Source of the DNA: a virus
DNA length: 22,974 bases
Strand: one strand, 5' to 3'
Virus record (IMG/VR): IMGVR_UViG_3300017786_000156
Location: 1-22,974 of that record
Every line of letters begins with the position of its first letter. Within the stretch, counting starts at the first letter, position 1. Positions 2,318-21,628 of this stretch are shown piece by piece. Under the pieces are notes generated by a model. It was not told where the DNA came from. It did not search any database and saw only the letters and a program-made list of their open reading frames with translations. A program made the position numbers and the translations under genes.

Positions 2318-3330
2318 ATAAATTTATGGAATGGAGTGCGCCGATATCGTAGATGCCCTCTCGTCTCTCCCTCTGTTTCGTGATAAGCCTTGAGAGTGGT
2401 AAGTCCTCCCTCTGCATCCTCGTCTCTCACGACGTGATCGCAGACCGTGTGAGTGATACAGCAAAATCGGAGTCCTTCCGGATGCCATTTGTGCCAGTTA
2501 AGATACAGATCCTGCGTCCCTCCTCCATCGTATCCGTCGAAGTGAGCTAGAGATGCGGCTCGCTTGCTCATGAGAGTGCATCCGAGTCCAGTCCAGTCCG
2601 TCTCGATGACTGCGCCTCGACCTGTGCCGACATGACTGTTGTCTAGCCATCCTCTGCGTCTCCACTTCTTCGCATTCAGCTCGAAGACGTTGCCGCTCGG
2701 AGGACATTTTTTAATGCGCTCATTTATCCTGCCCATTCTCTCATGCTCCTTGTCGAATGATTCTCGGCTCATGTCCTTATTTTTTAGCCTCTCCTCGCAA
2801 GAGTCTATGAGTAGCTGTAGCTTGCTGGGAATGATCCGCTCCTCTGGCAGATAGTCCTCTGCGATCGGATGCCTATAGCTTCCATGTCCTCCTAGAAAGC
2901 TCCCGCCTCCCTGCGAAGGATAAGTGACGAAGGAGACGTCGTAGTAGCCTCCGTCGAAGCGTAGCATGTCTAGAGATACAGATAGAGCATTATGAGGAAC
3001 TAGAACGTCTGCCTCGACGCTCCAGAGAAAGTCGCATCCCCAGCGTCTCGCTGCGTCAAATCCTGTAGACTGCAGAGAAGCTATTAGGATCTGCCGATCC
3101 TTTTTGTAATGCTCTCCGCTCTCCTCCATGTCGATTGCTATGATCTCTCGATCCTCGAAGTCTTTAGCCAAGGCATCGACTGCCTTTTTGCTCGCCTTGT
3201 CTGTGACTACGATAAGTCGATGATCGAACTCGGAACTCTCATGCTCGATCGCCGTCCTAGTTCTACGAAGGCACACTTCTAAGGGATCGACATAGGATTT
3301 AGTCGCTACGATTACTGTGGCTATTTTCAT
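2314..3330 (-). CDS. GT-A type glycosyltransferase in the tail operon
   Basis: A 338-residue protein with the layout of a GT-A glycosyltransferase. The N-terminus MKIATVIVATKSYVDPLEVC is a nucleotide-binding beta strand and turn. A DxD-like metal/nucleotide motif lies in WSVEADVLVP (Glu106-Ala-Asp108). The acceptor-side segment DWTGLGCTLMSKRA and a late His/Asp-containing segment (THTVCDHVV) fit the second half of such enzymes. No signal peptide or membrane segment is visible, so it should act in the cytoplasm. Its start lies just past the stop of the 776-residue tail protein and its end overlaps the dehydratase start by 4 bases. The likely role is sugar transfer onto a virion protein, or less likely onto host surface glycan. 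The fold is inferred from motifs and the acceptor is unknown. Confidence 0.72.
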   Translation of the reverse strand: MKIATVIVATKSYVDPLEVCLRRTRTAIEHESSEFDHRLIVVTDKASKKAVDALAKDFEDREIIAIDMEESGEHYKKDRQILIASLQSTGFDAARRWGCDFLWSVEADVLVPHNALSVSLDMLRFDGGYYDVSFVTYPSQGGGSFLGGHGSYRHPIAEDYLPEERIIPSKLQLLIDSCEERLKNKDMSRESFDKEHERMGRINERIKKCPPSGNVFELNAKKWRRRGWLDNSHVGTGRGAVIETDWTGLGCTLMSKRAASLAHFDGYDGGGTQDLYLNWHKWHPEGLRFCCITHTVCDHVVRDEDAEGGLTTLKAYHETEGETRGHLRYRRTPFHKFI

Positions 3331-5670: not shown

Positions 5671-6252
5671 TTACCCTCCTGCCGTCTGCTTCCAAGTGTA
5701 GTAAATGTCGTTAGGATATTCTCCTAGATCTACGGATCTTTTAGGAATTTCGTAAGCTATATCGACGGAGAAATAGAGATTGTGATTCACTATTTGACTA
5801 ATTAACTCGTTCTCTCCTACGACAGCTATAACATATTTAAAACTAGTATTAACTCCATTTTCTACGAATTCAATTCCGTCTGGAGCGGAGCTTTCGCGAA
5901 CTAATTTTACTGAAGTAACTCCATCGGAGTCTGCGTCTATCTCTAAGCATAAATAAGAAGTCCCAGAGCCATTATTTACTGAAAGATTCTGCACGATAAG
6001 TCCATTTACTAATCCTGCGTTAATACGAACGACATCGTCATTAACCGATATTACTTCGAATGGATTATATTTAATAATTCCGTCTAGCTGTTTTGCTGGA
6101 GCTATAAGAAGAGATCCATCTCCGTTCTGGTTTACGGAGATTCCTCCCGCTCCTCTGGAATTATATAATCCATTAATCGCATCGATAAGCTCGTTAGCTT
6201 TTTCCGTATCTAGTAGAGACGGAGCTTCGTTTCTAGTAAGTCTCTCGATCAT
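5671..6252 (-). CDS. tail/baseplate protein, unknown (193 aa)
   Basis: A 193-residue protein with no motif I recognise. It begins MIERLTRNEAPSLLDTEKAN, a helical segment often seen at the N-terminus of phage tail-tip proteins that carry a predicted trimerisation or attachment helix, followed by a beta-rich body with repeated Ile/Val-Asn strands. Its ATG overlaps the stop of the 238-residue gene by 4 bases, and its own stop is 7 bases from the next gene, so it sits firmly inside the tail operon. Position after the tape measure and before the fibre genes suggests a baseplate or fibre-attachment component. No function can be assigned from sequence alone. Confidence 0.6.
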   Translation of the reverse strand: MIERLTRNEAPSLLDTEKANELIDAINGLYNSRGAGGISVNQNGDGSLLIAPAKQLDGIIKYNPFEVISVNDDVVRINAGLVNGLIVQNLSVNNGSGTSYLCLEIDADSDGVTSVKLVRESSAPDGIEFVENGVNTSFKYVIAVVGENELISQIVNHNLYFSVDIAYEIPKRSVDLGEYPNDIYYTWKQTAGG

Positions 6253-10826: not shown

Positions 10827-11147
10827 TTATCTCTGATATTCAGAAGCGCAGTCGAGCCTGCGAGTGACTCCTACCGAGTCGTCGTGAACGCTGACGACCT
10901 TGTAGTTCGTCGTGCCGTCCGTTAAGATCATCCCCTTGGAAGGAAGGATCGAGTAGTCTGCGCGAGCGATGTAGAACTTTGTGTCGATCATCTCCTCGCG
11001 ACCGTCCTCGTAGATGTCGAAGCTAGACTCTGCGTCCTGCTTGTTAGCTGAGTATGTCTCTCCGTTTGAAGGCGATGAAGTCAGAGAGACATTGATCTGC
11101 GAGATCGCGAACTTGAGATTATCAGAAATTAAAGAAGTGAGGCTCAT
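10827..11147 (-). CDS. head-tail connector / stopper candidate
   Basis: A 106-residue beta-rich protein, first gene of the tail-side block after the second insertion. Size, the pattern of strands (FYIARADYSILPSKGMILTDG, TNYKVVSVHDDSVGVTRRLD) and place before the tail completion-like gene fit small head-tail connectors of the lambda gpFII / SPP1 gp16 type, which close the portal channel and dock the tail. No diagnostic motif is available, so this is inferred from context. The ATG at 11147 has no Shine-Dalgarno. A terminator lies only 30 bases upstream, with no recognisable promoter between, so its expression depends on readthrough or an unseen start. Confidence 0.5.
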   Translation of the reverse strand: MSLTSLISDNLKFAISQINVSLTSSPSNGETYSANKQDAESSFDIYEDGREEMIDTKFYIARADYSILPSKGMILTDGTTNYKVVSVHDDSVGVTRRLDCASEYQR

Positions 11148-11170: not shown

Positions 11171-11202
11171 ACGAAAGAGCCTCCGGCTTTCGCGGGAGGC
11201 TC
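11171..11202 (-). terminator. intrinsic terminator after the second insertion
   Basis: On the minus strand GAGCCTCC and GGAGGCTC (11195-11202 and 11177-11184) form a perfect 8-bp stem whose loop contains GCGAAAGC, itself an extra-stable GNRA-type mini-hairpin. The following T-tract is short (TTTCGTG), so it may be leaky. It ends the two-gene cargo unit. Confidence 0.75.
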
Positions 11203-11224
11203 TAGAGTGTTTGATATAATGCGC

Positions 11225-11674
11225 TTAATTATTTTCGACGCATATGCTGTATCCGACGTTGCGCCGTGAAGCCTTTTTCAGAGTGAGCATCTCGTTGCCT
11301 CTGGTTACTCTTTCGAGGCATTTTTCTCTGCTAGATTCTAATGCTTTTGATGTTCTGACTCGACCGCTTCCTCCCATAAGCTCCCAATTACAGATGCCTC
11401 TTTTGATGCTGTAGAACATTTCAGAAGATACAATCCAGCTGAAATTTTCTAGCTTCATGATGGAGAAGTCATAAGTCCAGTTCTGACCATATTGAATGAT
11501 CTCGACTCTAAGATTGTAGCTACTGACTGAGTTCATTAAGTCCTGTAGGTTGATGTCTTTGCATTCCTTTACAGAGAACTTTTCGAGGAGAATCTTCTTT
11601 GCTTCTTCCGGAGTCTTGATCGGAAGATCGGCGAGCCTTTTTACTGTTTTAACTTTGCAAGGTTGTTTTTTCAT
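11225..11674 (-). CDS. cargo gene of unknown function (149 aa)
   Basis: A 149-residue basic protein (start MKKQPCKVKTVKRLADLPIK) with no motif I recognise and no signal or membrane segment. It is the second gene of the two-gene unit inserted between the major capsid gene and the connector genes, 68 bases after the upstream cargo gene. The start at 11674 is supported by the start leader shared by all cargo genes (A-rich run then ACACGACT directly before ATG). The gap upstream carries a 25-base element also found in the other insertion. It is not expected to be structural; a role in host takeover or superinfection exclusion is only a guess from the setting. Confidence 0.6.
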   Translation of the reverse strand: MKKQPCKVKTVKRLADLPIKTPEEAKKILLEKFSVKECKDINLQDLMNSVSSYNLRVEIIQYGQNWTYDFSIMKLENFSWIVSSEMFYSIKRGICNWELMGGSGRVRTSKALESSREKCLERVTRGNEMLTLKKASRRNVGYSICVENN

Positions 11675-11702
11675 AGTCGTGTTTTTTAGTAGGTTTAATA
11701 TG

Positions 11703-11727
11703 TGAAGTGTAAGATGCTTCGCCCTGT
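11703..11727. repeat. 25-base intergenic element, copy A
   Basis: The stretch tgaagtgt-a-agatgcttcgcc-ctgt occurs here and at 17324-17348 with one mismatch (a to g). Both copies lie between the first and second gene of a cargo unit, upstream of the second gene's start leader. GAAG and CTTC can pair weakly. Confidence 0.85.
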
Positions 11728-11742
11728 GGTAGATTTTTTATA

Positions 11743-12129
11743 TTAGCAGTAGCGATCCATCTCTTCTTCGTCTCCACTAAGACGAGCGATTTCAAAGTTC
11801 TGACGACGCTGACATTCTTCGCCGCGCCAAGCGGCTGATCCGTATCTCGCATAAGTCTCGACCCAATGCTCTGGATTTATCTCGCCTGCTTTAGCAACTC
11901 GATCCGCGAGAGCTTCGACCTTTAGTGTGATCTGATCATAGTCGCCGTCTACAGGATTAGAGAAACCGCGATCATGTAGATAGCGAGATCCGTCATCTAG
12001 CTCGATAAGAACGCGATATACTGGACGAACGATATCTCCGCGAGGATTATCCATATCCGCACATTCTGGATCGGAGTATAGAACTTCTTCGTTAGCTTGA
12101 GTTGAGACTTGTTGTGCTGTGATTTTCAT
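11743..12129 (-). CDS. cargo gene of unknown function, acidic (128 aa)
   Basis: A 128-residue acidic protein (MKITAQQVSTQANEEVLYSD...) that I cannot assign to a family. It is cytoplasmic by appearance, with several acidic patches and a C-terminal Glu/Asp run. It is the first gene behind the promoter module at 12130-12247, which begins directly at its ATG, and it follows the terminator of the major capsid unit. Regulation therefore appears independent of the capsid genes. Small acidic early-type proteins often bind host enzymes, but nothing here identifies a partner. Confidence 0.65.
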   Translation of the reverse strand: MKITAQQVSTQANEEVLYSDPECADMDNPRGDIVRPVYRVLIELDDGSRYLHDRGFSNPVDGDYDQITLKVEALADRVAKAGEINPEHWVETYARYGSAAWRGEECQRRQNFEIARLSGDEEEMDRYC

Positions 12130-12247
12130 TGTCGTGTTTTTTTTAGGTTATTCTCGGCGTTTCTCGCTTCGATATGACAGATAAAGTAGTATAAAATGAC
12201 CCCCGTCAATAGCATATTTCACCTTTTTTTCACTTTATTTTAGGCAC
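12130..12247 (-). promoter_or_regulatory. cargo promoter module, copy 1
   Basis: Reading on the minus strand: gtgcctaaa, two AGTGAA-like boxes 11 bases apart (the second is GGTGAA), TTGAC at 12209-12205, a candidate -10 near TACTTTATC 18 bases after TTG, then a leader with ATCGAAGCG-N5-CGCC and CCTAAAAAAAACACGACA-ATG. TTGAC lies 80 bases from the ATG. The same order and spacing occur in three other places in the window. Confidence 0.82.
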
Positions 12248-12278
12248 AAAAAAGCCCCTCCCGTCTAGCAGGAGAGGC
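12246..12278 (-). terminator. intrinsic terminator after the major capsid gene
   Basis: On the minus strand GCCTCTCC pairs with GGAGGGGC (8 bp with one G-T/U pair) around an eight-base loop and is followed by TTTTTTG. It lies 22 bases after the capsid stop and directly in front of promoter module copy 1. Confidence 0.88.
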
Positions 12279-12300
12279 TGATAAGTGATAGCTATATCGA

Positions 12301-13218
12301 CTACGCGCTTGCGATCTTCTCGCAGGCGTTAGTATTGATGATCGACTCGTCTACGCTGTTGAAGACGCGAAGGACATCGCTCTTGATTGGCTCATCGCGA
12401 TACTGCTCTGCAGAGAAGACGCCGCCGTCTGCGCTGTAGGATAGTGTGCGACCGAAGCCTCCGTTGGCGAAGTCGCCTCCGGCTACTTGACCTACAAAGT
12501 AGGAATCGGTAGACCAGATCTTGGAGCGAGATGCTGTGGCTCCCTTGGCTGCGCTGTTGTAGCGAGTAGGAGTGATGATGATTTCATTAACACCTAGAGC
12601 GTCGAGGATGACTTGACGATTGCTGTATTGACCGTTGCCGTTGAAGATTCCACGGACGTCGTCTGTGTTGAGCATAGCGTTGAACAGAGAAGTCTCCATG
12701 ATGAGCGCGATGCCATCATAGAAGCCGTTACCGTTAAGACGCTCTACAGCGTTCTGGATATCGGCAATAGGTTTAGCTGTCGCGCTAGTAGCCATAGTAG
12801 CTGTAGCGTCTGTGCTGTTGAAGCCTGCTGCTGCCATTAGAGAAGCTACACGAAGTTCGTGACCTACCATGATGTCGCGCTGCAGCTTCTTAGCGATAGC
12901 TGCTGCGGAATCAGAGATGCCGTCGTCGCTTGCTTGCGTTACGTCTTCGTCCGGAAGTAGACCTTCGAGAGCGTATTGCTTGCAAGAGTAGTCTTGCTGA
13001 CCGTATGCGAAATCGCGACGTGCGAAGGCAGAGCCTGCGGCGCGAACTTTGGAAGCGTTGAGATCGAACTGATCGTCGCCGAAAACAGGATACTGACCGC
13101 TCTTGGTCGCGACATCGCGAACAGGAAGGATCTTAGTTCCTACGAATTGATTTTCGCCGATCTTGTTAAGAGCCTCGGAGAGAACTGGGTTGAATGTGGC
13201 TGATGTATATAAGCTCAT
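12301..13218 (-). CDS. major capsid protein (HK97-fold type)
   Basis: A 305-residue protein after the protease/scaffold and decoration genes, the standard place for the major capsid protein. It starts MSLYTSATFNPVLSEALNKIG; mentions of RDFAYGQQDYSCKQYALEG and later EIIITPTRYNSAAKG fit the E-loop and P-domain pattern of capsid proteins that lack a long N-terminal delta domain (scaffold supplied separately). Codon use is strong and regular. The start at 13218 is preceded by an A/T-rich leader without Shine-Dalgarno. It ends TAG and is followed by a good intrinsic terminator, giving a high-abundance transcript that stops there. The fold is inferred from position, size and composition. Confidence 0.85.
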   Translation of the reverse strand: MSLYTSATFNPVLSEALNKIGENQFVGTKILPVRDVATKSGQYPVFGDDQFDLNASKVRAAGSAFARRDFAYGQQDYSCKQYALEGLLPDEDVTQASDDGISDSAAAIAKKLQRDIMVGHELRVASLMAAAGFNSTDATATMATSATAKPIADIQNAVERLNGNGFYDGIALIMETSLFNAMLNTDDVRGIFNGNGQYSNRQVILDALGVNEIIITPTRYNSAAKGATASRSKIWSTDSYFVGQVAGGDFANGGFGRTLSYSADGGVFSAEQYRDEPIKSDVLRVFNSVDESIINTNACEKIASA

Positions 13219-13239
13219 TTAAAAAATAAAGTTTAAGGG

Positions 13240-13602
13240 TTATTTAGCTGTAAGCACCTCGATTACATCGCCGTCTGATGCTGCAGCACTAAGTGCTACT
13301 CCGATCTTCTCGGTTCCAGATGCGTCTGTAAGTTTGCCGCCAGTTGTGTTGTAGACGAGATCACCGATAGCGATGTCTTTAGAAGCGATGGCAAACGAAG
13401 TGCCTCCACCGTGAATTAGAGATACAGTAGTAGCTTCGGAAGCTGCTGCTGGGGAAGTGGTGAAACCTACGACTGGATCTGCGCTAGCATCGGAAGCGGA
13501 TAGCGTTCCGTCTGAAGCGACTTTGACCAAGATATAAGCTCCTAGTGCGCTCGAACCATTTACAAATGTCCGGTTGCTGTTGGATACTGTTGTTGCTGAC
13601 AT
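13240..13602 (-). CDS. capsid decoration protein (DUF2190-like)
   Basis: A 120-residue Ala/Ser/Thr-rich beta protein between the protease-scaffold and major capsid genes, as with lambda gpD. The segments VKVASDGTLSASDASADPVVG and IAIGDLVYNTTGGKLTDAS, and the ending GDVIEVL, match the DUF2190-type decoration/stabilisation proteins seen beside capsid genes in many siphophages. It would bind the outside of the mature capsid at threefold or quasi-threefold sites. The start at 13602 follows an A-rich leader without Shine-Dalgarno. Alternative: a head fibre base protein. Confidence 0.75.
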   Translation of the reverse strand: MSATTVSNSNRTFVNGSSALGAYILVKVASDGTLSASDASADPVVGFTTSPAAASEATTVSLIHGGGTSFAIASKDIAIGDLVYNTTGGKLTDASGTEKIGVALSAAASDGDVIEVLTAK

Positions 13603-13623
13603 AATGTTAGTTATTTTGTTGGG

Positions 13624-14247
13624 TTAGATTTGAAAGAGTTCTGGACGATCTTTGCCGAGGCGAAGAGTCGCTGCGAACTCAGAGATTTTGTTTTCTTTTG
13701 CAAATTCTGAGATGATCTTGGAGCGATTAGCTTTGCTAGGCTCGTAGTCTTTATCGCCTACAGATGCTTGAACGAGATCAGAACCTTCGATGAGCTTTTC
13801 GAGAGTGGCGACCTTCGAGGATAGCTTGGATGCTTTAGCTTCCATCTTCTCTTGATCTTCGCCCATCTCTTTTTCCATCTCTTCGAGCTTAGAATTTAGT
13901 CCGGCGATCTCTTCGAGCTTCGATGCGATCTCCTTCTTTAATTCTTCGACCTCGTCTTCTTCGACGACTTCTTCCTCTTCGACTTCAGCTTCTTCGTCTT
14001 CGACGACTTCAGCATCTTCTTCGACGACTTCAGCATCATCTTCGACGACCTCGTCTTCTTCGACTAGCTCTTCAGCAGCCTCTTCGACTTCAGCTTCTTC
14101 GTCGTCTTCGGCGAGAGGAGCAGAGCTTTCCTTGAGTTTAAATTGTAGCTCTTCTACGCGAGCCTCGGAGTCGGTTACACTAAGCGCGAGAGTTTCATTC
14201 TCCTGCTTTAGCTTTTCGTTGAGTTCAGTTAGTTCTGCTTTTGTCAT
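13624..14247 (-). CDS. possible nested scaffold protein (internal start)
   Basis: An in-frame ATG at residue 310 of the protease gene begins MTKAELTELNEKLKQENE, a typical scaffold N-terminus, and would give a 207-residue protein containing only the coiled-coil and acidic part. Lambda makes its scaffold Nu3 from an internal start in gene C in the same way. The ATG is preceded by aattacaag with no Shine-Dalgarno, which is not unusual for this genome. The scaffold might instead be released by protease cleavage. Confidence 0.4.
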   Translation of the reverse strand: MTKAELTELNEKLKQENETLALSVTDSEARVEELQFKLKESSAPLAEDDEEAEVEEAAEELVEEDEVVEDDAEVVEEDAEVVEDEEAEVEEEEVVEEDEVEELKKEIASKLEEIAGLNSKLEEMEKEMGEDQEKMEAKASKLSSKVATLEKLIEGSDLVQASVGDKDYEPSKANRSKIISEFAKENKISEFAATLRLGKDRPELFQI

Positions 14248-15174
14248 CTTGTAATTAGGTTTGGTGTCAATTATAGAAAATAGTCCTCTCTGATTAGCAG
14301 CAGGAGAGTCTACGAAATCCGCGCTCGAAACTTCTTCGACGCGAATAGATGGATATTCAAACAGCGCATCCTCTGGAGGATTGTCTTCGTCGTATAGACG
14401 ATCGCTGTCATTGTTAGGAAAACGTCCCATAGGAACATCTCCGTCCGGAGTTGCCCATGCGATGTCTGCCTCGAAAACGATGCTGAGTCCGAATCGTTCC
14501 GGCATCTTCTCAGCCATCTCGAATAGTCGATTATATTTGCGACTGTCGTCCTCTCGAAAAGAGTCGAAGGCTTGGAAGTCTCCTAGAAGCCGATCTCCTT
14601 CGATGCGAAAATTGTTGAACATGCCTATCTCGCGAGTGAGGCGATCCTCGAAGAGTGCGCCTCTGTGCGTGATATAGGCAGGCAGCTTAGTGTCTTCTAG
14701 CTCATCGATGATCGTCTCCAGAGACTTACCATCGACGTAGAGTCCGTGACCTAAAGCCGACCCTACTGATATGAGAGCGACCGAGCGCATAGTCCCGTCC
14801 TCGTTATTGACTTGAGTCTCCTTGTTAGACTCTACTCCGAATGCAAATTGTCTCGACATACTTTGAGCCGCTTTGTCAATTTTCTTGAGTTTCGAGATCG
14901 CCCAATTCACTCCGGACGAGCCTCCCCATGCGTCCCACATTAGACCTCCGCAGCCTTCAGAGTAGGGAACGTCCTTGCTCTTTTGATGCCGCTTGAAGGA
15001 TGCCATGCGAGCGATAGTCTCTCGACTGATCTTCTCGCGCTTGGCTAATTGATTCGCTCGCGCCCATCCCACAGGAGTTCCGCATTTGTTGTCTGCATTC
15101 TCGTCCTTATACTTTAAGGCTCGCTTCGCGTTATTCGTAGCTCCTTGAGGATAGTCGTTGTAAGTCTCTGCCAT
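13624..15174 (-). CDS. prohead protease-scaffold fusion with N-terminal extra domain
   Basis: A 516-residue three-part protein. Residues 1-100 form a domain with YNDYPQGATNNAKRALKY, CGTPVGWARANQLA and YSEGCGGLMWDAWGG, known as an accessory N-terminal region in some phage head proteases. Residues ~125-300 are the serine protease: His170 in YITHRG and Ser231 in RFGLSIVF match the His and Ser of the U35/S78 prohead protease fold, and the domain ends VSSADFVDSPAANQRGLFS. From Met310 the chain becomes a coiled coil with a Glu/Asp/Val-rich stretch (~350-410), then a basic C-terminus, typical of a scaffold. It cleaves capsid precursors and itself. The start lies three bases after the portal TAG in the same frame (TAG, one Ile codon, ATG). 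Confidence 0.85.
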   Translation of the reverse strand: MAETYNDYPQGATNNAKRALKYKDENADNKCGTPVGWARANQLAKREKISRETIARMASFKRHQKSKDVPYSEGCGGLMWDAWGGSSGVNWAISKLKKIDKAAQSMSRQFAFGVESNKETQVNNEDGTMRSVALISVGSALGHGLYVDGKSLETIIDELEDTKLPAYITHRGALFEDRLTREIGMFNNFRIEGDRLLGDFQAFDSFREDDSRKYNRLFEMAEKMPERFGLSIVFEADIAWATPDGDVPMGRFPNNDSDRLYDEDNPPEDALFEYPSIRVEEVSSADFVDSPAANQRGLFSIIDTKPNYKMTKAELTELNEKLKQENETLALSVTDSEARVEELQFKLKESSAPLAEDDEEAEVEEAAEELVEEDEVVEDDAEVVEEDAEVVEDEEAEVEEEEVVEEDEVEELKKEIASKLEEIAGLNSKLEEMEKEMGEDQEKMEAKASKLSSKVATLEKLIEGSDLVQASVGDKDYEPSKANRSKIISEFAKENKISEFAATLRLGKDRPELFQI

Positions 15175-15177
15175 GAT

Positions 15178-16644
15178 CTAGACTTCCGGCTCTGCGTCTG
15201 CGCTCGACACGACCTCTGAATAGTTGCCGCTCATCGATGTTGGGAATGGATTGATTAGCTCTCGCCATTCTAGACCTGCGCCTTCGGCGATCTCTTGAGC
15301 CTTCTTAATGTTCTGCGCCTTTCTCATAAGAACCTCCTCGGCAGTATAGCCGAAGGGAGCCGTGATGTCGTCGAGCGACATAGCTCCGGCTCTGAAGTAT
15401 TCCATGTCTGCCTTAACCTGCGCCGCTCGATTGATCCATCTGAACGCCGGACGCTGCCAGCGAACCGCGAAAGGATTAGCCGCCGAGGATACATCGATCT
15501 TCTCACTAGCGATCTGCTGAGAGAGCCAGCGACGGTAGAGGCGGCTCATGATGCGAATGAGATCAGACTGATAGCTCTCGACTGTCTGCTGATACTGGAG
15601 GACGACGCCTTGAGATGCAGAGAAGGAGCTGCCGCCGATCTCCATGAGTAAGAACTCAAGAGGAATGCCGACCGCGCTTCCGACCTTGCGTAGCAGATAG
15701 GAGACCCATTGGATCCCGTCTACGTTCGGACGTCCGTTCGCGCCGATGACGCTGATGTCTTCGCCCGGCTCTAAGTAGTGGAAGCGTCCCGGCTGGAACT
15801 CTTCGAGATTGCCTAGAGCATCCTGCTCGCTTCCGTCTAGTCGATTCTGTAGCTCGAACTCGTAGGAGTTCTCTCGCTTAACTGCGACCGCCAGAGATGC
15901 GCTGACTTTAGCCGCCATCATCTCGACGCGATCATATTCGTCGCAGTCCTGTAAAGTGTTAATCACCGACGATAGCTCTGGAACGCCTCTGTATTGGCTA
16001 GGACGGACGCGACGTAGGAAAGGGATAAAGTCCCTAGCCGGTATGATCTGCGTGTCTCTGAGAGTGCCTGCGACGCGATTACCGACGGCGTAGGCGACAG
16101 GCTTGCCCATCTTGTCGATCTCTACGCCGTTCTGAAATTCTGATTCTTCGTTCGATGTGAAGGCTCCGCTAGGGTTGCCGATCCGAGATCCGTCTACGAA
16201 TTGAACTTGATCCTTGCCGACGATCAGACCGCAGTCGCCATAGAAGAGGAGCGAGTCGATCATCTGTTGCTGCATCTCGCGCATGTCCATCATGCACGTT
16301 ACTTCCGGAGACTCTGCGAACCTGTTCCAGCATTCTAGAATATGAGCATCCGTGTCGTCGTTGCCGGTAGATGGCTGCGGGATTAGTCCCCTGCCTACGA
16401 TGTCTGCCTTACGCAGTCTCGACAGCGAGGCGACGACAGGGTTATTCCTGCGGAACTCTAGGCACGTAGAGATCATGCGATCTCTGTCGTATTCGTTCAG
16501 CTCGATCTCTTCGGATCTCACCGGAAGGTTTCCGCGCTTTGCTCTGTATCGAGTGTTGCGAACTGCGTCGTAGCCTTGAAAGGCTCTGACAAATTGCTTA
16601 AAGGCGAAGGAGACTCTGCTCGGTTTTTTCGTTTTTTTATCCAT
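15178..16644 (-). CDS. portal protein (lambda gpB-like)
   Basis: A 488-residue protein overlapping the gpW-like gene by 8 bases. It fits the lambda-type portal family: N-terminal arginine-rich start, RMISTCLEFRRNNPVVASLSRL near residue 50-75, central GRPNVDGIQWVSYLLRKVGSAVGIPLEFLL, and the C-terminal WQRPAFRWINRAAQVKADME followed by a gamma-turn MSLDDITAPFGYTAEEVLM. The last part matches the ending of many such portals. Twelve copies form the ring through which terminase packages DNA and the tail docks. Length is slightly short of lambda gpB (533). The start is at ATG 16644. It ends TAG, three bases before the protease start. Confidence 0.9.
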   Translation of the reverse strand: MDKKTKKPSRVSFAFKQFVRAFQGYDAVRNTRYRAKRGNLPVRSEEIELNEYDRDRMISTCLEFRRNNPVVASLSRLRKADIVGRGLIPQPSTGNDDTDAHILECWNRFAESPEVTCMMDMREMQQQMIDSLLFYGDCGLIVGKDQVQFVDGSRIGNPSGAFTSNEESEFQNGVEIDKMGKPVAYAVGNRVAGTLRDTQIIPARDFIPFLRRVRPSQYRGVPELSSVINTLQDCDEYDRVEMMAAKVSASLAVAVKRENSYEFELQNRLDGSEQDALGNLEEFQPGRFHYLEPGEDISVIGANGRPNVDGIQWVSYLLRKVGSAVGIPLEFLLMEIGGSSFSASQGVVLQYQQTVESYQSDLIRIMSRLYRRWLSQQIASEKIDVSSAANPFAVRWQRPAFRWINRAAQVKADMEYFRAGAMSLDDITAPFGYTAEEVLMRKAQNIKKAQEIAEGAGLEWRELINPFPTSMSGNYSEVVSSADAEPEV

Positions 16645-16879
16645 TAAAATTCTGCAGCGTGATTCGATTGCGCCCTCGACCTCCGAGAGTCTTGTCCTTC
16701 AGAGCGATGAGCCGGTCTAGCTTCTCGACCTGTGTGATCAGACTGCCGACGTCTGCTAGGGAGAATGTCTGGTCTCCGATGCTGTAGGAAGTGACTCCCT
16801 CCTCTGCGAGTTTTAAGATCGCAGTCAAGAGCTTGTCTCGTATCGCGATCAGTTGAGCTGTAGTAGTAGTAGACGCCAT
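16637..16879 (-). CDS. gpW-like head-tail joining protein
   Basis: An 80-residue protein just upstream of the portal, as gpW is in lambda. The middle segment SIGDQTFSLADVGSLITQVEKL resembles the small beta-hairpin plus second helix of gpW, and the C-terminus is basic and flexible (GGRGRNRITLQ). gpW sits under the portal and is needed before the tail connector binds. The ATG has an AGGAG nine bases upstream, a rarity in this window. A terminator lies 32 bases upstream, with only about 30 bases between, including TATTGAC, so how it is transcribed is unclear. Confidence 0.78.
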   Translation of the reverse strand: MASTTTTAQLIAIRDKLLTAILKLAEEGVTSYSIGDQTFSLADVGSLITQVEKLDRLIALKDKTLGGRGRNRITLQNFNG

Positions 16880-16905
16880 CGTCTAAGGCTCCTATGTCAA
16901 TATAC

Positions 16906-16937
16906 GAAAAAGCCTCCCTGCTTTCGCGGAGAGGCTT
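16906..16937 (-). terminator. intrinsic terminator before gpW
   Basis: On the minus strand AGCCTC and GAGGCT pair (6 bp, extended by partly matched TCC/GGG) around a loop containing GCGAAAGC, followed by TTTTTCG. It ends the two-gene cargo unit 16979-17671 and resembles the terminator at 11171-11202, including the inner mini-hairpin. Confidence 0.78.
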
Positions 16938-16978
16938 TGGAGTGTGGAGTGCTAAAGCTCTAGACTCTTTGCAGGTCT

Positions 16979-17299
16979 TTAGCATACATTAGCGATCATC
17001 TTGATGACTGCTGTGTGAGGACAATCTGACTCGAAGCAAAATGAGTAGTTGTTGTAGTCGTCGTCTAGGACAGTCCACTTTTCTTCGCTTACGAATTTAG
17101 TAGCCTTGAAGGAGCCGCCGTCCTTGTCTGTGTAAGTTAGGATCTCGACGTCATACTTGCTTCCGTCGTTATTAGCGTCGAAAGAATGAACGATAGTCAT
17201 GTCCTTGTCATACTCTTTGCAGGCGAGACGAGTGTCGTTAGCTTTGAAGTCTACGCTCTCGCCAGACCAGTTTGATTTAAGTGTTCGGTAGTTTTTCAT
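16979..17299 (-). CDS. cargo gene of unknown function (106 aa)
   Basis: A 106-residue protein with four cysteines, three of them in the last ~20 residues (FCFESDCPH... and the terminal NVC), and several acidic Asp/Asn runs (DANNDGSKYD, LDDDYNNYS). I do not recognise it. It is the last gene of its unit, followed 40 bases later by a terminator. Its start is supported by the cargo leader (CAAAACACGAC directly before ATG). The upstream gap holds copy B of the 25-base intergenic element, as in the other insertion, which argues that the two-gene units share an architecture by descent or exchange. Confidence 0.6.
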   Translation of the reverse strand: MKNYRTLKSNWSGESVDFKANDTRLACKEYDKDMTIVHSFDANNDGSKYDVEILTYTDKDGGSFKATKFVSEEKWTVLDDDYNNYSFCFESDCPHTAVIKMIANVC

Positions 17300-17323
17300 G
17301 TCGTGTTTTGTTGTGTTAAAAAA

Positions 17324-17348
17324 TGAAGTGTGAGATGCTTCGCCCTGT
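17324..17348. repeat. 25-base intergenic element, copy B
   Basis: Same element as at 11703-11727 with a single mismatch. It lies between the two genes of the second cargo unit, ~25 bases upstream of the second gene's start. Confidence 0.85.
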
Positions 17349-17353
17349 TAGAG

Positions 17354-17671
17354 TTATATCTTATTCCATCCGACTGACTCGCATAGAAAATGCTCTCCGT
17401 CCACTACGACAATATCGCCTGTAGAAAGTGAGTAGTTACCTAGATCGCGAAAATCAGTTGCGATTTTAAGTTCCGCTTCATTTAGCATTTCTTGAGGAGC
17501 ATTTAGAATGTGAAAAACGAAGTCAGCGACTTCTTCGCCGATACGTTTATGATCCATTATAAAGCTCTGAGGAATGACTGCTTCGTAGATTTTGGAACGA
17601 GGAGTATTTTCGTCTGCATCCCATTGATCTCTGCGATTAGTTGGGCGATGTATTTCTATTGAGTTGCTCAT
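17354..17671 (-). CDS. cargo gene of unknown function (105 aa)
   Basis: A 105-residue acidic protein beginning MSNSIEIHRPTNRRDQWDAD. It has no recognisable motif, signal or membrane segment; the C-terminal third (LSTGDIVVVDGEHFLCESVG) looks like a small SH3-like or OB-like beta barrel, which is only an impression. It is the first gene behind promoter module copy 2, whose ACACACGACC sits directly before the ATG. It shares the unit with 16979-17299. Confidence 0.62.
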   Translation of the reverse strand: MSNSIEIHRPTNRRDQWDADENTPRSKIYEAVIPQSFIMDHKRIGEEVADFVFHILNAPQEMLNEAELKIATDFRDLGNYSLSTGDIVVVDGEHFLCESVGWNKI

Positions 17672-17780
17672 GGTCGTGTGTTTTTTTTAGGTTATTCGAG
17701 GCGTGAATCGCTCCGATATGAAAGATAAAGTAGGATGAATTTGATCGAGTCAATACCTTATTCACTTATTTTTCACTATA
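17672..17780 (-). promoter_or_regulatory. cargo promoter module, copy 2
   Basis: Minus strand: AGTGAA boxes 11 bases apart, TTGAC at 17753-17749, candidate TACTTTATC 18 bases after TTG, then CATATCGGAGCG-N5-CGCC and CCTAAAAAAAACACACGACC-ATG. TTGAC is 82 bases from the ATG. The upstream gene's TAG and an immediate TGA fall inside the first box region (tagTGAA), so the module has fused to that gene's end, with no terminator between. Confidence 0.82.
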
Positions 17781-18498
17781 CTTTAGAGACGCTTACCTCC
17801 GGAAGTTTGTGGCTGTTTCTTTGCACGTCGGCATCGATCGTGTAATGCTCGGCATACTTGTTGAGGAAAGCGTCGAGCCAATCGGCATTGTCTGCGTAGC
17901 GGATGAACTTGACCTTTACGTCGCCGGTCTTCGCGACCATCTTGAAGGTATACTTGAAATCGCAGAAGCTCTTCTCGTGTTTGTTGTAGACGCGAGTAGT
18001 GAAACTAGCCTTCTTCTTTTCGAGCTTCGCTAGGCTCTTCGCTAGGCTGTCCGCTACGATCTTGCGACCTCTTACCAGAGCGTCTGCACAGTCTACGTTT
18101 TGAAACGTCTCCTCGACCACGTAGATCCCCTCGATGCGATGTCTGCGATTAGCAGTCATCCAGTCTTCGATCTTGCCGTTCTTTACGGCGAAGATGTGTC
18201 CGCTTGTAAGAACCGCGACCGTGTTATTTTTGAGGAACTTCCGTGCGCCCTTCATGAACTGGCAAACTGTTTTGCCATTGTAAGAATCTAGCCCGCTCTT
18301 GTTGAACTTGAAAAACTTTCTGTAGACAGAATCGTAGGTTCCTCTTCTGCATCCTTGATTCAGTTTGCGACCTGCGTCTGCCATAACAGCTTGAGCGTCC
18401 TCGAACTTGATGCCCGCGATGACGGCGAGAGTTACTACTGTGCATGCGTTGTCGTCGTTTTTGAAGGCTTCGCTTTTTTTGATAGTGTCGTGATTCAT
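17776..18498 (-). CDS. putative papain-like cysteine peptidase (cargo gene)
   Basis: A 240-residue soluble protein and the only cargo gene with recognisable family signs. Residues 1-115 read like a compact papain-like (C39/transglutaminase-like) domain: NDDNACTVVTLAVIAGI puts Cys19 at the start of a helix, a GRKLNQGCRRGTY turn follows at 43-55, and SGHIFAVKNGKIEDW gives His101 and Asp112. This Cys-helix, GH-strand, Asp order is the usual catalytic layout, and similar small proteins occur in many phages. Residues ~140-240 are a charged second region (KSLAKLEKKKASFTTRVYNKH). It forms its own unit behind promoter module copy 3. Possible roles are cleavage of a host protein or deamidation; no substrate is visible. 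Activity is inferred. Confidence 0.55.
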   Translation of the reverse strand: MNHDTIKKSEAFKNDDNACTVVTLAVIAGIKFEDAQAVMADAGRKLNQGCRRGTYDSVYRKFFKFNKSGLDSYNGKTVCQFMKGARKFLKNNTVAVLTSGHIFAVKNGKIEDWMTANRRHRIEGIYVVEETFQNVDCADALVRGRKIVADSLAKSLAKLEKKKASFTTRVYNKHEKSFCDFKYTFKMVAKTGDVKVKFIRYADNADWLDAFLNKYAEHYTIDADVQRNSHKLPEVSVSKV

Positions 18499-18614
18499 GA
18501 GTCGTGTTTTTAGGTTTTTTCTAGGCGTTAATCGCTTCGATATGAAAGATAGAAAACTACTAAGATCGTCGAGTCAATACCTTATTCACTTATTTTTCAC
18601 TTATATTTAGGCAC
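18499..18614 (-). promoter_or_regulatory. cargo promoter module, copy 3
   Basis: Minus strand: gtgcctaaa, AGTGAA boxes 11 bases apart, TTGAC at 18577-18573, a weaker -10 region (TTTTCTATC), CATATCGAAGCG-N5-CGCC, and CCTAAAAACACGACTC-ATG. TTGAC is 79 bases from the ATG. A terminator abuts its upstream edge, the same terminator-promoter arrangement as copy 1. Confidence 0.82.
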
Positions 18615-18650
18615 GAAAAAGCCTCGCCCAGACACGACTCCGGACGAGGC
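18615..18650 (-). terminator. intrinsic terminator after four-gene cargo unit
   Basis: On the minus strand AGCCTCG and CGAGGCT pair over 7 bp (loop 18 bases, partly foldable by further CC/GG pairs), followed by TTTTTCG. It lies about 40 bases after the stop at 18689. Confidence 0.8.
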
Positions 18651-18688
18651 TCAACCTATTTTATTTATTACACGTATGACACAAAGTG

Positions 18689-18925
18689 TTAGAGTTCAAA
18701 GATGCCGACATGATTGTCGAAAGAGTTGTCGCAGAAGATCGCATCTTCGAGCCTGTTCTGGAATGACTTGTTCTTCGCATTGAAGACCTCGAAGTCTCTC
18801 GATACTGCGAACCGGCGAGTCTCGCTGCGGAGATATCGGACGATGTCCTCGATGCGTCTGACAGTCGCGACGTAGACATGATCTGAGTAGTGAATAGAGA
18901 CGTTAGCGTAAGTAGTGTTTTTCAT
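18689..18925 (-). CDS. cargo gene of unknown function (78 aa)
   Basis: A 78-residue protein (MKNTTYANVSIHYSDHVYVA...) with no family I can name. Start chosen at 18925 because the cargo leader (CCTAAAAAAACACTACT, one base different from the usual ACACGACT) directly precedes it. It is the last gene of the four-gene unit behind module copy 4. Its frame is preferred over the overlapping 72-residue frame at 18661-18879, which lacks a leader and has a poor, Ser/Arg-biased composition. Confidence 0.6.
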   Translation of the reverse strand: MKNTTYANVSIHYSDHVYVATVRRIEDIVRYLRSETRRFAVSRDFEVFNAKNKSFQNRLEDAIFCDNSFDNHVGIFEL

Positions 18926-18950
18926 AGTAGTGTTTTTTTAGGTTAGATGA

Positions 18951-19157
18951 TTATTTTACAAGCAGGTCTTCTAGTTTTTTAGTTTCGTCACACAGCTCTT
19001 TGTATGAACACTTCTTATCCCATATCAATACGGGATTGGTGAAGCCATCGCCGATCGGCTTCTGATTTCGGTAATCATATATTTTTCCCGTTCCGGAGAT
19101 TGGAGCATACATGCCTATGATCTTTGTTTTTTTGCGAATGTTTTTTTGTATTTTCAT
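18951..19157 (-). CDS. cargo gene of unknown function, basic (68 aa)
   Basis: A 68-residue protein starting MKIQKNIRKKTKIIGMYAPI, very basic at the N-terminus, followed by a segment resembling a short beta-rich nucleotide-modification or binding motif, though nothing firm. The cargo leader (TAAAAAACACGATC before ATG) supports the start. It lies third in the four-gene unit, 24 bases after the preceding stop. Confidence 0.58.
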   Translation of the reverse strand: MKIQKNIRKKTKIIGMYAPISGTGKIYDYRNQKPIGDGFTNPVLIWDKKCSYKELCDETKKLEDLLVK

Positions 19158-19181
19158 GATCGTGTTTTTTAGTAGTAATGA

Positions 19182-19391
19182 TTAAAGTGAAGCAGCCTCT
19201 TTAGCTGTTTTGTTTATGAGTCTTTGCATCCCTAAAGCTGTTGAACAGAATCCTCCTAGTTGTCGGCAGTCCTTGTGGCTTATGACAACAGTATCGCTGA
19301 AGGGTTCGATGGTAACGCCGTTGTCTAGCGTTTGCTTTTTAACTGTGCGAACGAACTTTACGGCTTTGCAGTATTTTTGGTATTTAGTCAT
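19182..19391 (-). CDS. cargo gene of unknown function (69 aa)
   Basis: A 69-residue basic protein (MTKYQKYCKAVKFVRTVKKQ...) with three cysteines (CKAV, CRQLGGFC) and a helical C-terminus. No family recognised. Start at 19391 carries the cargo leader (CCTAAAAATAAAACACGAC before ATG). It is second in its unit, behind the stable hairpin at 19415-19439. The overlapping plus-strand frame 19210-19413 is a shadow. Confidence 0.6.
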   Translation of the reverse strand: MTKYQKYCKAVKFVRTVKKQTLDNGVTIEPFSDTVVISHKDCRQLGGFCSTALGMQRLINKTAKEAASL

Positions 19392-19414
19392 GTCGTGTTT
19401 TATTTTTAGGTGAT

Positions 19415-19439
19415 GCCTTGCCTCCGAAGAGGCTAAGGC
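19415..19439 (-). other. stable UUCG hairpin between cargo genes
   Basis: On the minus strand GCCTT-A-GCCTC TTCG GAGGC-AAGGC folds into two 5-bp stems separated by one bulged A, closed by the C(UUCG)G tetraloop. No T-run follows, so it is not a standard terminator; it may protect mRNA ends or separate translation of the two genes. Confidence 0.7.
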
Positions 19440-19453
19440 TTGTTAGTTAAAAT

Positions 19454-19666
19454 TTAGTCTTCAAAAATTTTGTGAACACCTTTATAGCGTTCTTGGTATT
19501 GCTCCCATGTAGGAAGTGAGTCGCGATACTGAATCAAGTCGCTGATCAAATCATCAAGATTTTCGCGATTGTGAATTGCGTTTTCAAATCTGAAGTTGTC
19601 TCTGACAAGACTCTTAGCTTCTTCTTTGATTTCTACTGTTGATGGATATTTTTCTGGGTTGCTCAT
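19454..19666 (-). CDS. cargo gene of unknown function, acidic (70 aa)
   Basis: A 70-residue helical acidic protein (MSNPEKYPSTVEIKEEAKSL...). Four-helix-like with many Glu/Asp and Arg pairs; no motif recognised. It is the first gene behind promoter module copy 4, with ACACGACT directly before ATG 19666. The unit that begins here runs through 19391, 19157 and 18925 to the terminator at 18615-18650. Confidence 0.62.
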   Translation of the reverse strand: MSNPEKYPSTVEIKEEAKSLVRDNFRFENAIHNRENLDDLISDLIQYRDSLPTWEQYQERYKGVHKIFED

Positions 19667-19772
19667 AGTCGTGTTTTTTAGGTTTTTTCTAGGCGTTAAT
19701 CGCTTCGATAGAACAGAGTAAGTAGGACAAATTTGAGCGAGTCAATAGCATATTCACTTTTTTTTCACTTTT
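19667..19772 (-). promoter_or_regulatory. cargo promoter module, copy 4
   Basis: Minus strand: AGTGAA boxes 11 bases apart (inside a long A-run), TTGAC at 19745-19741, a weaker -10 region (TACTTACTC) at the same spacing, CTATCGAAGCG-N5-CGCC, and CCTAAAAAACACGACT-ATG. TTGAC is 79 bases from the ATG. It starts about 10 bases after the TerL stop with no terminator between. Confidence 0.8.
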
Positions 19773-19780
19773 TTTTATAC

Positions 19781-21628
19781 CTACCAAAAGCCTGTAGAAC
19801 TGCGGCTTCGCGTCGATGCGTCGCGCTTTCTGGGAGGACGCTCGTCAAACATTGTCGGCATATCTCCTCGATCGATTCGAGCTATGCCGATAAACTTGGA
19901 CAGAGCGCGAGCGAGGATCTCGCAGTCCCATAAGTGATCTCCCTTGCTGCGCTTCAACTTCTTCACGACTTTAATGTGACCGCTTCGATCTGTCTCCTTC
20001 GTCCAGTAAGTCGCGAAGAGCTGATCGTAGTAGACCTTCGGAGTGTCCGTGAAAGTGTGGAAGCCGGAGAGCTGCCGAGAGCGCAGCCGAGAAAGCTCCT
20101 CCTCGTAGATGCTCTTGTTCACGTGAAGGTATCGAATCTTAGATCGACCGCCTCGACCTTTCGTGTCTCCGGTAAATGGATCCTTCATCTGCAGTCGATA
20201 GGGTTGCTCGCCTTGAAGGTTCTTCCAGCCGCGAGATCCGAACCATTTAGAGCGACGCCGGAAGACCTCCTCGTAGATCTCGGAAGTTCTATCTCCGGCG
20301 CAGTCGATGATGGCTGCGTGAGCTTTGTGCTGATCGTAGATAAGATCTAACTCGGAGAACGAAGCGACTTGACCGCAGTCGATGAGATAGCTCGTTCCGT
20401 CTCGATCGAAGCCTCGAACGACGAACCAGAAAGAGTCTGTCTGCGTATCGACTCCCATGACTCGATACTCGCCTCGAAGGTCGCCGCGCTCGTAGTCGAG
20501 TTCGAGTTCGTTCGCATCTGCCTGCTCTTGGTTCGCCCAATCATCTTTCCACGGCTCTGCCAAGTTACCTTGCACGAACTTGCGGAGACCGTGCATCGAT
20601 GAGCTTACCTGTAGCCAGTTAATGATGAGCGCGGAGAAAGTCATCGCCGGAGCGTATAGAGAGTTAAGATGATAGCTGCGATGATTTGCCGGAGCGTTCG
20701 GATTCTGGGATCTCCACTCTCCGTTCTTAATCATCGTAGGCTTATGAGCGTCGAGGATCTTCTGGTCGCAGCGCGGACATACATACGCCGCCGTCGATGC
20801 TACGAGATCGAAGTCGTATCCTCCGTCCTCGAACTTAGCCTCCTCGTCGAACGTGATCGAGTAACGGCTATTGCCGTCCTTATCTTTCTGCCTCCACTCG
20901 AACTGAATGAACTCCTCGCAATGAGGACATGGCATAAAGTATCTGCGCTGATCGCCGTAGAGATACTCTTCCCAGATCCCTCCTGTCTCTTCTTTTGGAG
21001 TGCTGGTCTGAATGATCTTATATTCTCGCCGTCCCTTAATACGTTCGAGCGCAGCGAGGCGAATGTCCGGATCGATCTCGTCGATCTCGTCCAGAACTAG
21101 ATAGGCGACCGGAGCCGACTTCACGTTATTCTCGGAGCCTGCTCCGGCGAAGGTTAGAGTGCATGACAGGAACTCCTGCCGCATGTTCGTGATCTTGTCG
21201 CTATCGACTCTGCCTGTGGCTGCGCTCAGAGGACATTGATCCTTGAGAGGCTTACAGTCGTCGATGAACGGAAGCCATCGACCCTTCGAGAAGTTGCGAG
21301 CGTTCTCTGCGCTCGGCATGATCCAGAGCGTGTCCTTCGGAAACTCGCTGAGAAGATATCCGATGCCGGCATACATTGTCGTCGTCTTGCTCGACTGCGA
21401 TCCCCAGCAGAGAGTGATCTTGCTGATCGTAGGATCGATCAGATCATTTAGAGGCTGCTGCGCGTAGGGAAAGACCTTGAGAGATCCGGGAAGTTCCGAG
21501 ACGTTATCTCTTAGAACGCAGTTGTCGAACGCCCATTCCACAGGAGACTTCAGACGCCGAGGAGAGAATAGTTTTCCTAGCTCATTATTTAACAGAGAAG
21601 CCATTTTTCGTCGCGAATTTTTTTGCAT
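19781..21628 (-). CDS. terL: terminase large subunit (lambda GpA-like)
   Basis: A 615-residue DNA-packaging motor. Walker A lies at residues 74-82 (CWGSQSSKT, with Ser-Ser in place of the usual Gly-Lys), Walker B at 176-181 (YLVLDE, then IDEID), and the coupling ST motif in QTSTPKEE. A zinc ribbon follows in CPHCEEF ... CPRCDQK, a hallmark of GpA-type terminases. The C-terminal RNase H-like nuclease begins VMGVDTQTDSFW, continues AIIDCAGDRT and ends GDHLWDCE, carrying the metal-binding Asps. It cuts concatemers and pumps DNA through the portal. Start: ATG 21628 overlaps the upstream gene; a second ATG is eight codons in. The next head gene (gpW) is 2.9 kb away because of the inserted cargo genes. 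Confidence 0.93.
   Translation of the reverse strand: MQKNSRRKMASLLNNELGKLFSPRRLKSPVEWAFDNCVLRDNVSELPGSLKVFPYAQQPLNDLIDPTISKITLCWGSQSSKTTTMYAGIGYLLSEFPKDTLWIMPSAENARNFSKGRWLPFIDDCKPLKDQCPLSAATGRVDSDKITNMRQEFLSCTLTFAGAGSENNVKSAPVAYLVLDEIDEIDPDIRLAALERIKGRREYKIIQTSTPKEETGGIWEEYLYGDQRRYFMPCPHCEEFIQFEWRQKDKDGNSRYSITFDEEAKFEDGGYDFDLVASTAAYVCPRCDQKILDAHKPTMIKNGEWRSQNPNAPANHRSYHLNSLYAPAMTFSALIINWLQVSSSMHGLRKFVQGNLAEPWKDDWANQEQADANELELDYERGDLRGEYRVMGVDTQTDSFWFVVRGFDRDGTSYLIDCGQVASFSELDLIYDQHKAHAAIIDCAGDRTSEIYEEVFRRRSKWFGSRGWKNLQGEQPYRLQMKDPFTGDTKGRGGRSKIRYLHVNKSIYEEELSRLRSRQLSGFHTFTDTPKVYYDQLFATYWTKETDRSGHIKVVKKLKRSKGDHLWDCEILARALSKFIGIARIDRGDMPTMFDERPPRKRDASTRSRSSTGFW

Follow-up and report, generated by a model that had tools for sequence, protein, structure and literature searches.

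A repeated promoter-like module in the head operon

The virus record IMGVR_UViG_3300017786_000156 of IMG/VR, a 22,974-base stretch of DNA that we call the window, carries a module of about 115 bases four times, always on the minus strand and ahead of small genes that interrupt the head operon in two places. Between close relatives, the genes behind these modules are exchanged, with edges at the ATG of the leader on one side and at the stop codon or the next leader on the other. We consider the best explanation, with a probability of roughly 0.77, to be that the module is a sigma70-type promoter with a fixed leader and that it provides shared flanks where relatives recombine, exchanging the cargo. 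Positions are those of the window, the minus strand being its reverse complement, and transcription in the window runs along the minus strand from the terminase genes to the tail genes. The island between the terminase large subunit gene (terL) and the gpW-like gene is referred to as site III, and that between the capsid and connector genes as site IV.

A BLAST search of the window with one module copy hit exactly four places (E values of 1e-58, 4e-22, 8e-22, and 5e-15). The first copy, behind terL (19667 to 19777, TTGAC at 19741 to 19745), has A-tract/AGTGAA repeats, a hairpin-like dyad, and an A-rich leader ending in CACGAC. The second stands behind a terminator (18499 to 18614, TTGAC at 18573 to 18577), the third overlaps the end of the gene for a 240-amino-acid protein (17672 to 17786, TTGAC at 17749 to 17753), and the fourth lies behind the capsid terminator (12130 to 12247, TTGAC at 12205 to 12209). 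The copies are 69 to 80% alike, with a mean column identity of 80%, and the distance from TTGAC to the ATG is 79, 79, 80, or 82 bases. In each copy, an A-rich stretch containing two AGTGAA-like repeats comes first, followed in the same order by TTGAC, a variable segment, bases resembling CTTTAT, ATCGAAGCG-n5-CGC, AACCTAAAAAA, CACGAC, and the ATG. A terminator hairpin immediately precedes each of the copies at 12130 to 12247 and 18499 to 18614, with GTGCCTAAA as the junction, and the other two copies follow the end of terL and the end of the 240-amino-acid gene. An initial annotation of this DNA had described four such modules with a shared part order and near-fixed spacing, two of them behind a terminator with a common junction, and this description holds; its positions were also right, but two of the copies reach further than it had drawn them, to about 17786 and 19777. 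It had also counted the terminator as a part of the module, which fits two window copies, but the terminator is optional and does not accompany every copy. The short leader AAAACACGAC occurs 11 times in the window at no more than one mismatch, against 1.5 occurrences expected from shuffles, and a short leader ending in CACGAC or a close form precedes all nine small genes of the two islands.

To place these copies among their relatives, we scanned IMG/VR with TerL (36 loci) and with the capsid protein (21 loci) and iterated a module profile built from the four window copies. A degenerate DNA pattern gave 96 stretches, many by chance, and those scoring weakly or zero with the profile were set aside. 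With the iterated profile, we found 58 distinct full-length modules whose context was available, and in 56 of them an ATG and an open frame follow within 14 nucleotides; by a simple fold rule, a terminator-like hairpin lies upstream of 31 of the 58. In related contigs, the module again stands before variable small genes, and at the same two places. Instead of fixed genes behind diverged spacers, we found differing cargo behind conserved modules in phages with 99% identical backbones.

Cargo exchange between close relatives

The relative L005 shares a backbone of 99.2 to 99.7% identity with the window, interrupted by exchanges whose edges can be read from the alignment (junction coordinates in this comparison are those of the reverse complement, i.e., 22975 minus the window position). 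In the first exchange, identity stops at 3306, next to the ATG at 3309, and restarts at 4032 in the leader of the gene at 4050. The second begins at 5316 (ATG at 5304) and ends at 5997, one base past the stop codon, and the third begins at 10855 (ATG at 10846) and ends at 11229, within the stop codon ending at 11232. Identity is lost within 12 nucleotides of the ATG behind three modules, and at site IV a gene for a 128-amino-acid protein is swapped from ATG to stop for an unrelated gene of 105 amino acids. Unrelated first genes are likewise exchanged in the pairs L026/L020 and L014/L016, with the left junctions 2 to 4 bases after the ATG and those on the right at the stop codons. When pooled, 17 of 28 left junctions fall at the leader ATG, against 1.1 expected, a count that 10,000 random placements never reached. 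Of the 30 right junctions, 21 fall at a leader or a stop codon, against 4.1 expected. The cassette exchange proposed in the initial annotation is thus borne out in that cargo is swapped under conserved modules, but mostly as single frames, with moves of a whole module-gene-terminator unit being rarer.

Several observations weigh against a guiding role of the modules in these exchanges. The junction events share ancestry and their counts are not independent, and the pooled figures are therefore descriptive. The decoration gene, which lies between the protease and capsid genes and has no module, is also replaced near the ends of its frame, so that selection for intact frames may explain a part of the junction pattern. 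This gene (13240 to 13602) is present as a diverged version between otherwise near-identical phages (the window compared with L005, L006, L038, and L040). Furthermore, the L020-like and L010-like parental modules of the relative L021 share an exact run of only 10 bases. The decoration gene and the short run shared by the L021 parental modules favor ordinary mosaicism, in which illegitimate recombination would strike anywhere, selection would keep the junctions outside frames, and the modules would be promoters lying in the gaps with no part in guiding the exchange. We regard this as unlikely, although it is the strongest of the alternatives, because the same module, leader, and intergenic-repeat families recur at the exchange sites, whole module-gene-terminator units have relocated, and modules themselves bear traces of recombination.

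These traces are of three kinds. The copy at 18499 is a mosaic of its two neighbors, having a 33-nucleotide exact run in common with the copy at 17672 in its 5′ half and a 36-nucleotide run in common with the copy at 19667 in its 3′ half. The relative L007 has module copies with exact runs of 115 and 84 nucleotides in common. L021 belongs to clade B across TerL and the opening part of the module (97.4% identical to L020), to clade A (about 96% identical to L010) from just before TTGAC through the cargo, and again to clade B from just before gpW onward. It is a recombinant with the crossover inside the module. We also considered concerted evolution within genomes as a general account of the likeness among copies and rejected it, since the copies of the window group are closer to their same-site counterparts in relatives than to each other; it fits the copies of L007 and those of L030, which are 87% alike. 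Separately, the second module of L010 (L010:4571-4630) keeps its 5′ half, and the sequence past TTGAC and the next gene differ.

Anatomy of the module

The A-tract block, TTGAC, the block holding ATCG and the dyad, and the leader are highly conserved among non-redundant copies, and the 17 bases after TTGACN are poorly conserved. TTGAC and ATCG are 36 bases apart in the window and the clade A groups, against 35 in clade B, with L024 being the lone exception at 29 bases, for which the earlier ATCG was counted. The dyad TCGAAGCG-n5-CGCTTCGA has arms of 8 bases, and 85% of its pairs are formed across 43 copies; folded as RNA, it gives a strong stem in clade A (-11.7 kcal/mol, z about -6). The leader is A-rich, ends in CACGAC-ATG, and has no Shine-Dalgarno sequence. 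A search against Rfam matched no known RNA. If TTGAC is taken as a -35 element, ATCG would lie near the RNA start and the dyad would form a stem-loop at the 5′ end of the transcript. This layout suggests that the module functions as a promoter.

The promoter reading also meets some difficulties. The -10 element is poor (nnnTAT), for which reason a scan with the sigma70 consensus does not list the modules. Three of the four copies in the window have a weak leader hairpin, and the covariation of the dyad is slight, so that the dyad may be an operator instead. In several clade B modules (L013, L020, L024, and L026), the 17-base spacer contains an inverted repeat, such as GAGGAC..GTCCTC in L024, which is possibly an operator as well.

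These features bear on an alternative in which the conserved block is mainly the binding site of a phage or host regulator, an operator or activator site that would co-regulate the early genes and the islands, with the dyad acting as DNA rather than as an RNA stem-loop. The half sites are conserved even where the dyad is imperfect and weak as RNA, as in the window copies, several clade B copies have their inverted repeats between TTGAC and the -10 element, and the relatives encode small DNA-binding domains (DnaA_C-like and HTH). On the other hand, the fixed strand polarity, the fixed spacing to the ATG, and the A-rich leader running to the start codon are covered by the promoter reading. A predominantly regulatory site seems to us improbable, slightly more so than unguided mosaicism, and the two readings are compatible.

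Sites of the module and movement of its cargo

Among the contigs examined, we distinguished 22 versions of site IV. Half of them lack called cargo, nine of these 11 being gaps of 74 to 87 bases. In the other 11 there are one or two genes, drawn from several unrelated families, and 10 of these versions have a module. In L038, for instance, the capsid and connector genes are 78 bases apart, and relative to it the window has an insertion of 1063 bases, the island, between two terminator tails. Site III is variable too and is occupied in each of its 27 versions. The module is not confined to these islands. In G001, the 36-kb record of L006 and the largest close record (about 36 kb), it is also found at the start of the lysis/replication operon, which encodes a transglycosylase/lysozyme, a nuclease, a DnaA_C-like protein, a methylase, and a primase-helicase, and again behind the primase-helicase gene. 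Because of these two further positions, the module appears to be the general promoter-leader of the lineage, and the initial view of it as a driver of moron islands describes sites III and IV but is too narrow.

Five cargo families are found at more than one genome site. The 105-amino-acid family is at site III in the window and at site IV in L163 (79%), and the 78-amino-acid and 240-amino-acid families, both at site III in the window, have relatives at the lysis/replication site in L093 (59%) and L043 (33%), respectively. The family of an 86-amino-acid L005 gene is found at site III, at the lysis/replication site (L074), and behind the primase-helicase gene (L009). The family of a 170-amino-acid G005 gene is at site III in several relatives and at the lysis/replication site in L092 and L093, there as an inverted module-gene-terminator unit. 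In these two contigs (L092:77-282 and L093:1365-1562), two modules stand back to back in opposite directions, one ahead of the inverted 170-amino-acid gene and the other, which is complete in L093, ahead of the lysis/replication operon.

The precise presence or absence of the capsid-connector island and the inverted relocated unit could point to a dedicated mobile element function, such as a homing endonuclease, a transposase, or an integrase, that would move the cargo and leave the modules as its footprints. However, no such enzyme family was matched among the window cargo, the junctions vary between events with no single target site, and the empty site showed no target-site duplication, making this explanation very improbable.

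Proposed mechanism

In the explanation that we favor, a promoter and leader with flanks open to recombination, the A-tract repeats (AGTGAA, about 10 to 11 bases apart) would act as an UP-like element and TTGAC as the -35 element, followed by an unconserved 17-base spacer and the poorly conserved nnnTAT as the -10 element. RNA would start near the invariant ATCG, 35 to 36 bases past TTGAC, with a short stem-loop at its 5′ end and then the A-rich leader, which lacks a Shine-Dalgarno sequence and ends in CACGAC-ATG. Blocks of small accessory genes would become separate transcription units, a terminator usually ending each, and the islands would be expressed not with the late head genes but with the lysis/replication operon, at whose start the module also stands. 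Co-infecting relatives would recombine at the shared flanks, i.e., the module, the leader, the intergenic repeat, and the terminator, which could serve in this way because they are recurrent and alike. Cargo would thereby be replaced, mostly one frame at a time, added, lost, or moved among four permissive sites, leaving the structural genes unaltered. Of this, sequence comparison shows the repeats, their conservation and sites, and the exchanges with their junctions; the activity of the promoter, its timing, the part played by the 5′ stem-loop, and guidance of recombination by the flanks are inferred.

More tentatively, and at somewhat less than even odds, the module may be regarded as a standardized expression socket. 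Here, one promoter-leader-terminator format would be used across the lineage, the leader and the spacer after the stop codon would be the handles for recombination, and genes would be exchanged precisely from ATG to stop and moved among four sites, two of which lie inside the late head operon, while being expressed in step with the lysis/replication genes.

Genes and terminators of the two islands

All features of the islands lie on the minus strand. Nine small genes in two places, between terL and gpW and between the capsid and connector genes, had been annotated initially, and the genes, their places, and their order are as described. Site III holds seven genes, those for proteins of 70 (19454 to 19666), 69 (19182 to 19391), 68 (18951 to 19157), 78 (18689 to 18925), 240 (17776 to 18498), 105 (17354 to 17671), and 106 amino acids (16979 to 17299). 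The 70-, 68-, and 106-amino-acid proteins are of unknown function, the 240-amino-acid protein belongs to phrog_3754, also of unknown function, and the 69-amino-acid gene is present only in the window among the fetched contigs. Site IV holds the 128-amino-acid gene (11743 to 12129), whose frame is taken by an unrelated gene of 105 amino acids in both L005 and L040, and a 149-amino-acid gene (11225 to 11674), which is 100% identical in L005 and absent in L006. Defense and Pfam libraries assigned no function to the cargo genes. The N-terminal domain of the 240-amino-acid protein resembles small uncharacterized proteins of many phages (BFVD, E value of 3.5e-7 and weaker), and its predicted fold (pLDDT of 63.5) had no convincing match in the PDB. 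A reading of this protein as a cysteine peptidase, based on conserved C/H/D residues, was not supported.

Site III is bordered by the backbone genes for the terminase large subunit (19781 to 21628) on the left and the gpW-like head-tail adaptor (16637 to 16879) on the right, and site IV by those for the major capsid protein (12301 to 13218) on the left and a presumed connector (10827 to 11147) on the right. The initial name gpW stands as a weak profile match (phrog_118, E value of 5.5e-6), and the connector gene has no family match. The intrinsic terminator behind the capsid gene (12253 to 12279) and an intrinsic-terminator-like hairpin with a T tail (18616 to 18652) each precede a GTGCCTAAA junction, and terminator-like hairpins end the terL-gpW island (16907 to 16938) and the capsid-connector island (11174 to 11203). 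Two copies of a promoterless intergenic repeat of the GGGCGAAGCATC type, each with a short leader, lie at 11675 to 11744 and 17300 to 17365. Outside the islands, a 516-amino-acid protein encoded between the portal and decoration genes has acidic low-complexity repeats in its C-terminal half (13927 to 14112).

Lineage

The best match of TerL is phrog_15; no TerL of a cultured phage reaches at least 60% identity, and the best are at about 22 to 27% and are not T4-like. We found no match to the capsid protein or the module among INPHARED phages, and a pattern scan of 84,980 bacterial and archaeal genomes found no relative of TerL or the capsid protein and no prophage copy. The more distant relative L030 (TerL at 78%) lacks this module. 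Ahead of its own small genes stand two 121-base repeats of similar layout (L030:8015-8135 and L030:10013-10133), which are 87% alike, have A-tracts, a TTGC element, and a leader ending in TACTACT-ATG, and are not recognized by the profile.

Comparison with known systems

Morons of lambdoid phages are non-structural genes with their own promoter and terminator that lie between structural genes and are present or absent among relatives; classical ones are single units with unrelated promoters. The site IV island resembles them, being inserted between genes adjacent in L038 and having promoter-like and terminator sequences. However, a single promoter-leader family here serves several sites and the lysis/replication operon.

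Composite promoter-terminator motifs, termed PeSL (promoter early stem-loop), were reportedly described in T4-like phages by Arbiol et al. in 2010 and Comeau et al. in 2014. In the available portion of one account, PeSL cassettes are repeated promoter and stem-loop units between small accessory genes that are said to mediate gene shuffling in related phages (PMC4503421). Compared with that portion, the module is alike in being a repeated, promoter-like unit with a putative stem-loop beside small genes and in the shuffling of accessory genes between related phages. It differs in its promoter sequence and in its lineage, which is unrelated (a phrog_15 terminase, not T4-like), in its fixed leader to the ATG, and in having two sites inside a late head operon. 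Mostly single frames are swapped here while the module stays, and the terminator is not found at every copy. The module thus probably acts in the manner of a PeSL, but its lineage sets it apart from these cassettes.

The ESAS and SAS elements of cluster K mycobacteriophages (PMC3203893) and cluster EF Microbacterium phages (PMC7302621) are, in the portions available of these reports, short conserved sequences that precede the start codons in small genes of varied families, with a consensus varying by subcluster, some of them with an extended upstream element that has an inverted repeat. Our module likewise has an upstream element with an imperfect inverted repeat, its arms being 8 bases rather than 17. 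The SAS, as given there, is a 13-bp sequence of the GGGATAGGAGCCC type that resembles a ribosome-binding site, in contrast to the A-rich leader here, which has no purine-rich Shine-Dalgarno sequence. A -35-like element, coupling to a terminator, and frame-for-frame exchange are not described for ESAS/SAS in those portions (PMC3203893 and PMC7302621).

Implications

In near-identical phage pairs of this lineage, the edges of replacements are readable to the base, and it becomes a testable question whether the mosaic junctions of phages are set by sequence shared at gene borders or by selection alone. Judging from the sequences compared here, positions in a late operon may host accessory genes behind a promoter of the lysis/replication type, and accessory genes can be changed without touching the genes that build the particle. 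The module with its leader is also a search key for candidate host-takeover or counter-defense genes in this uncultured phage lineage.

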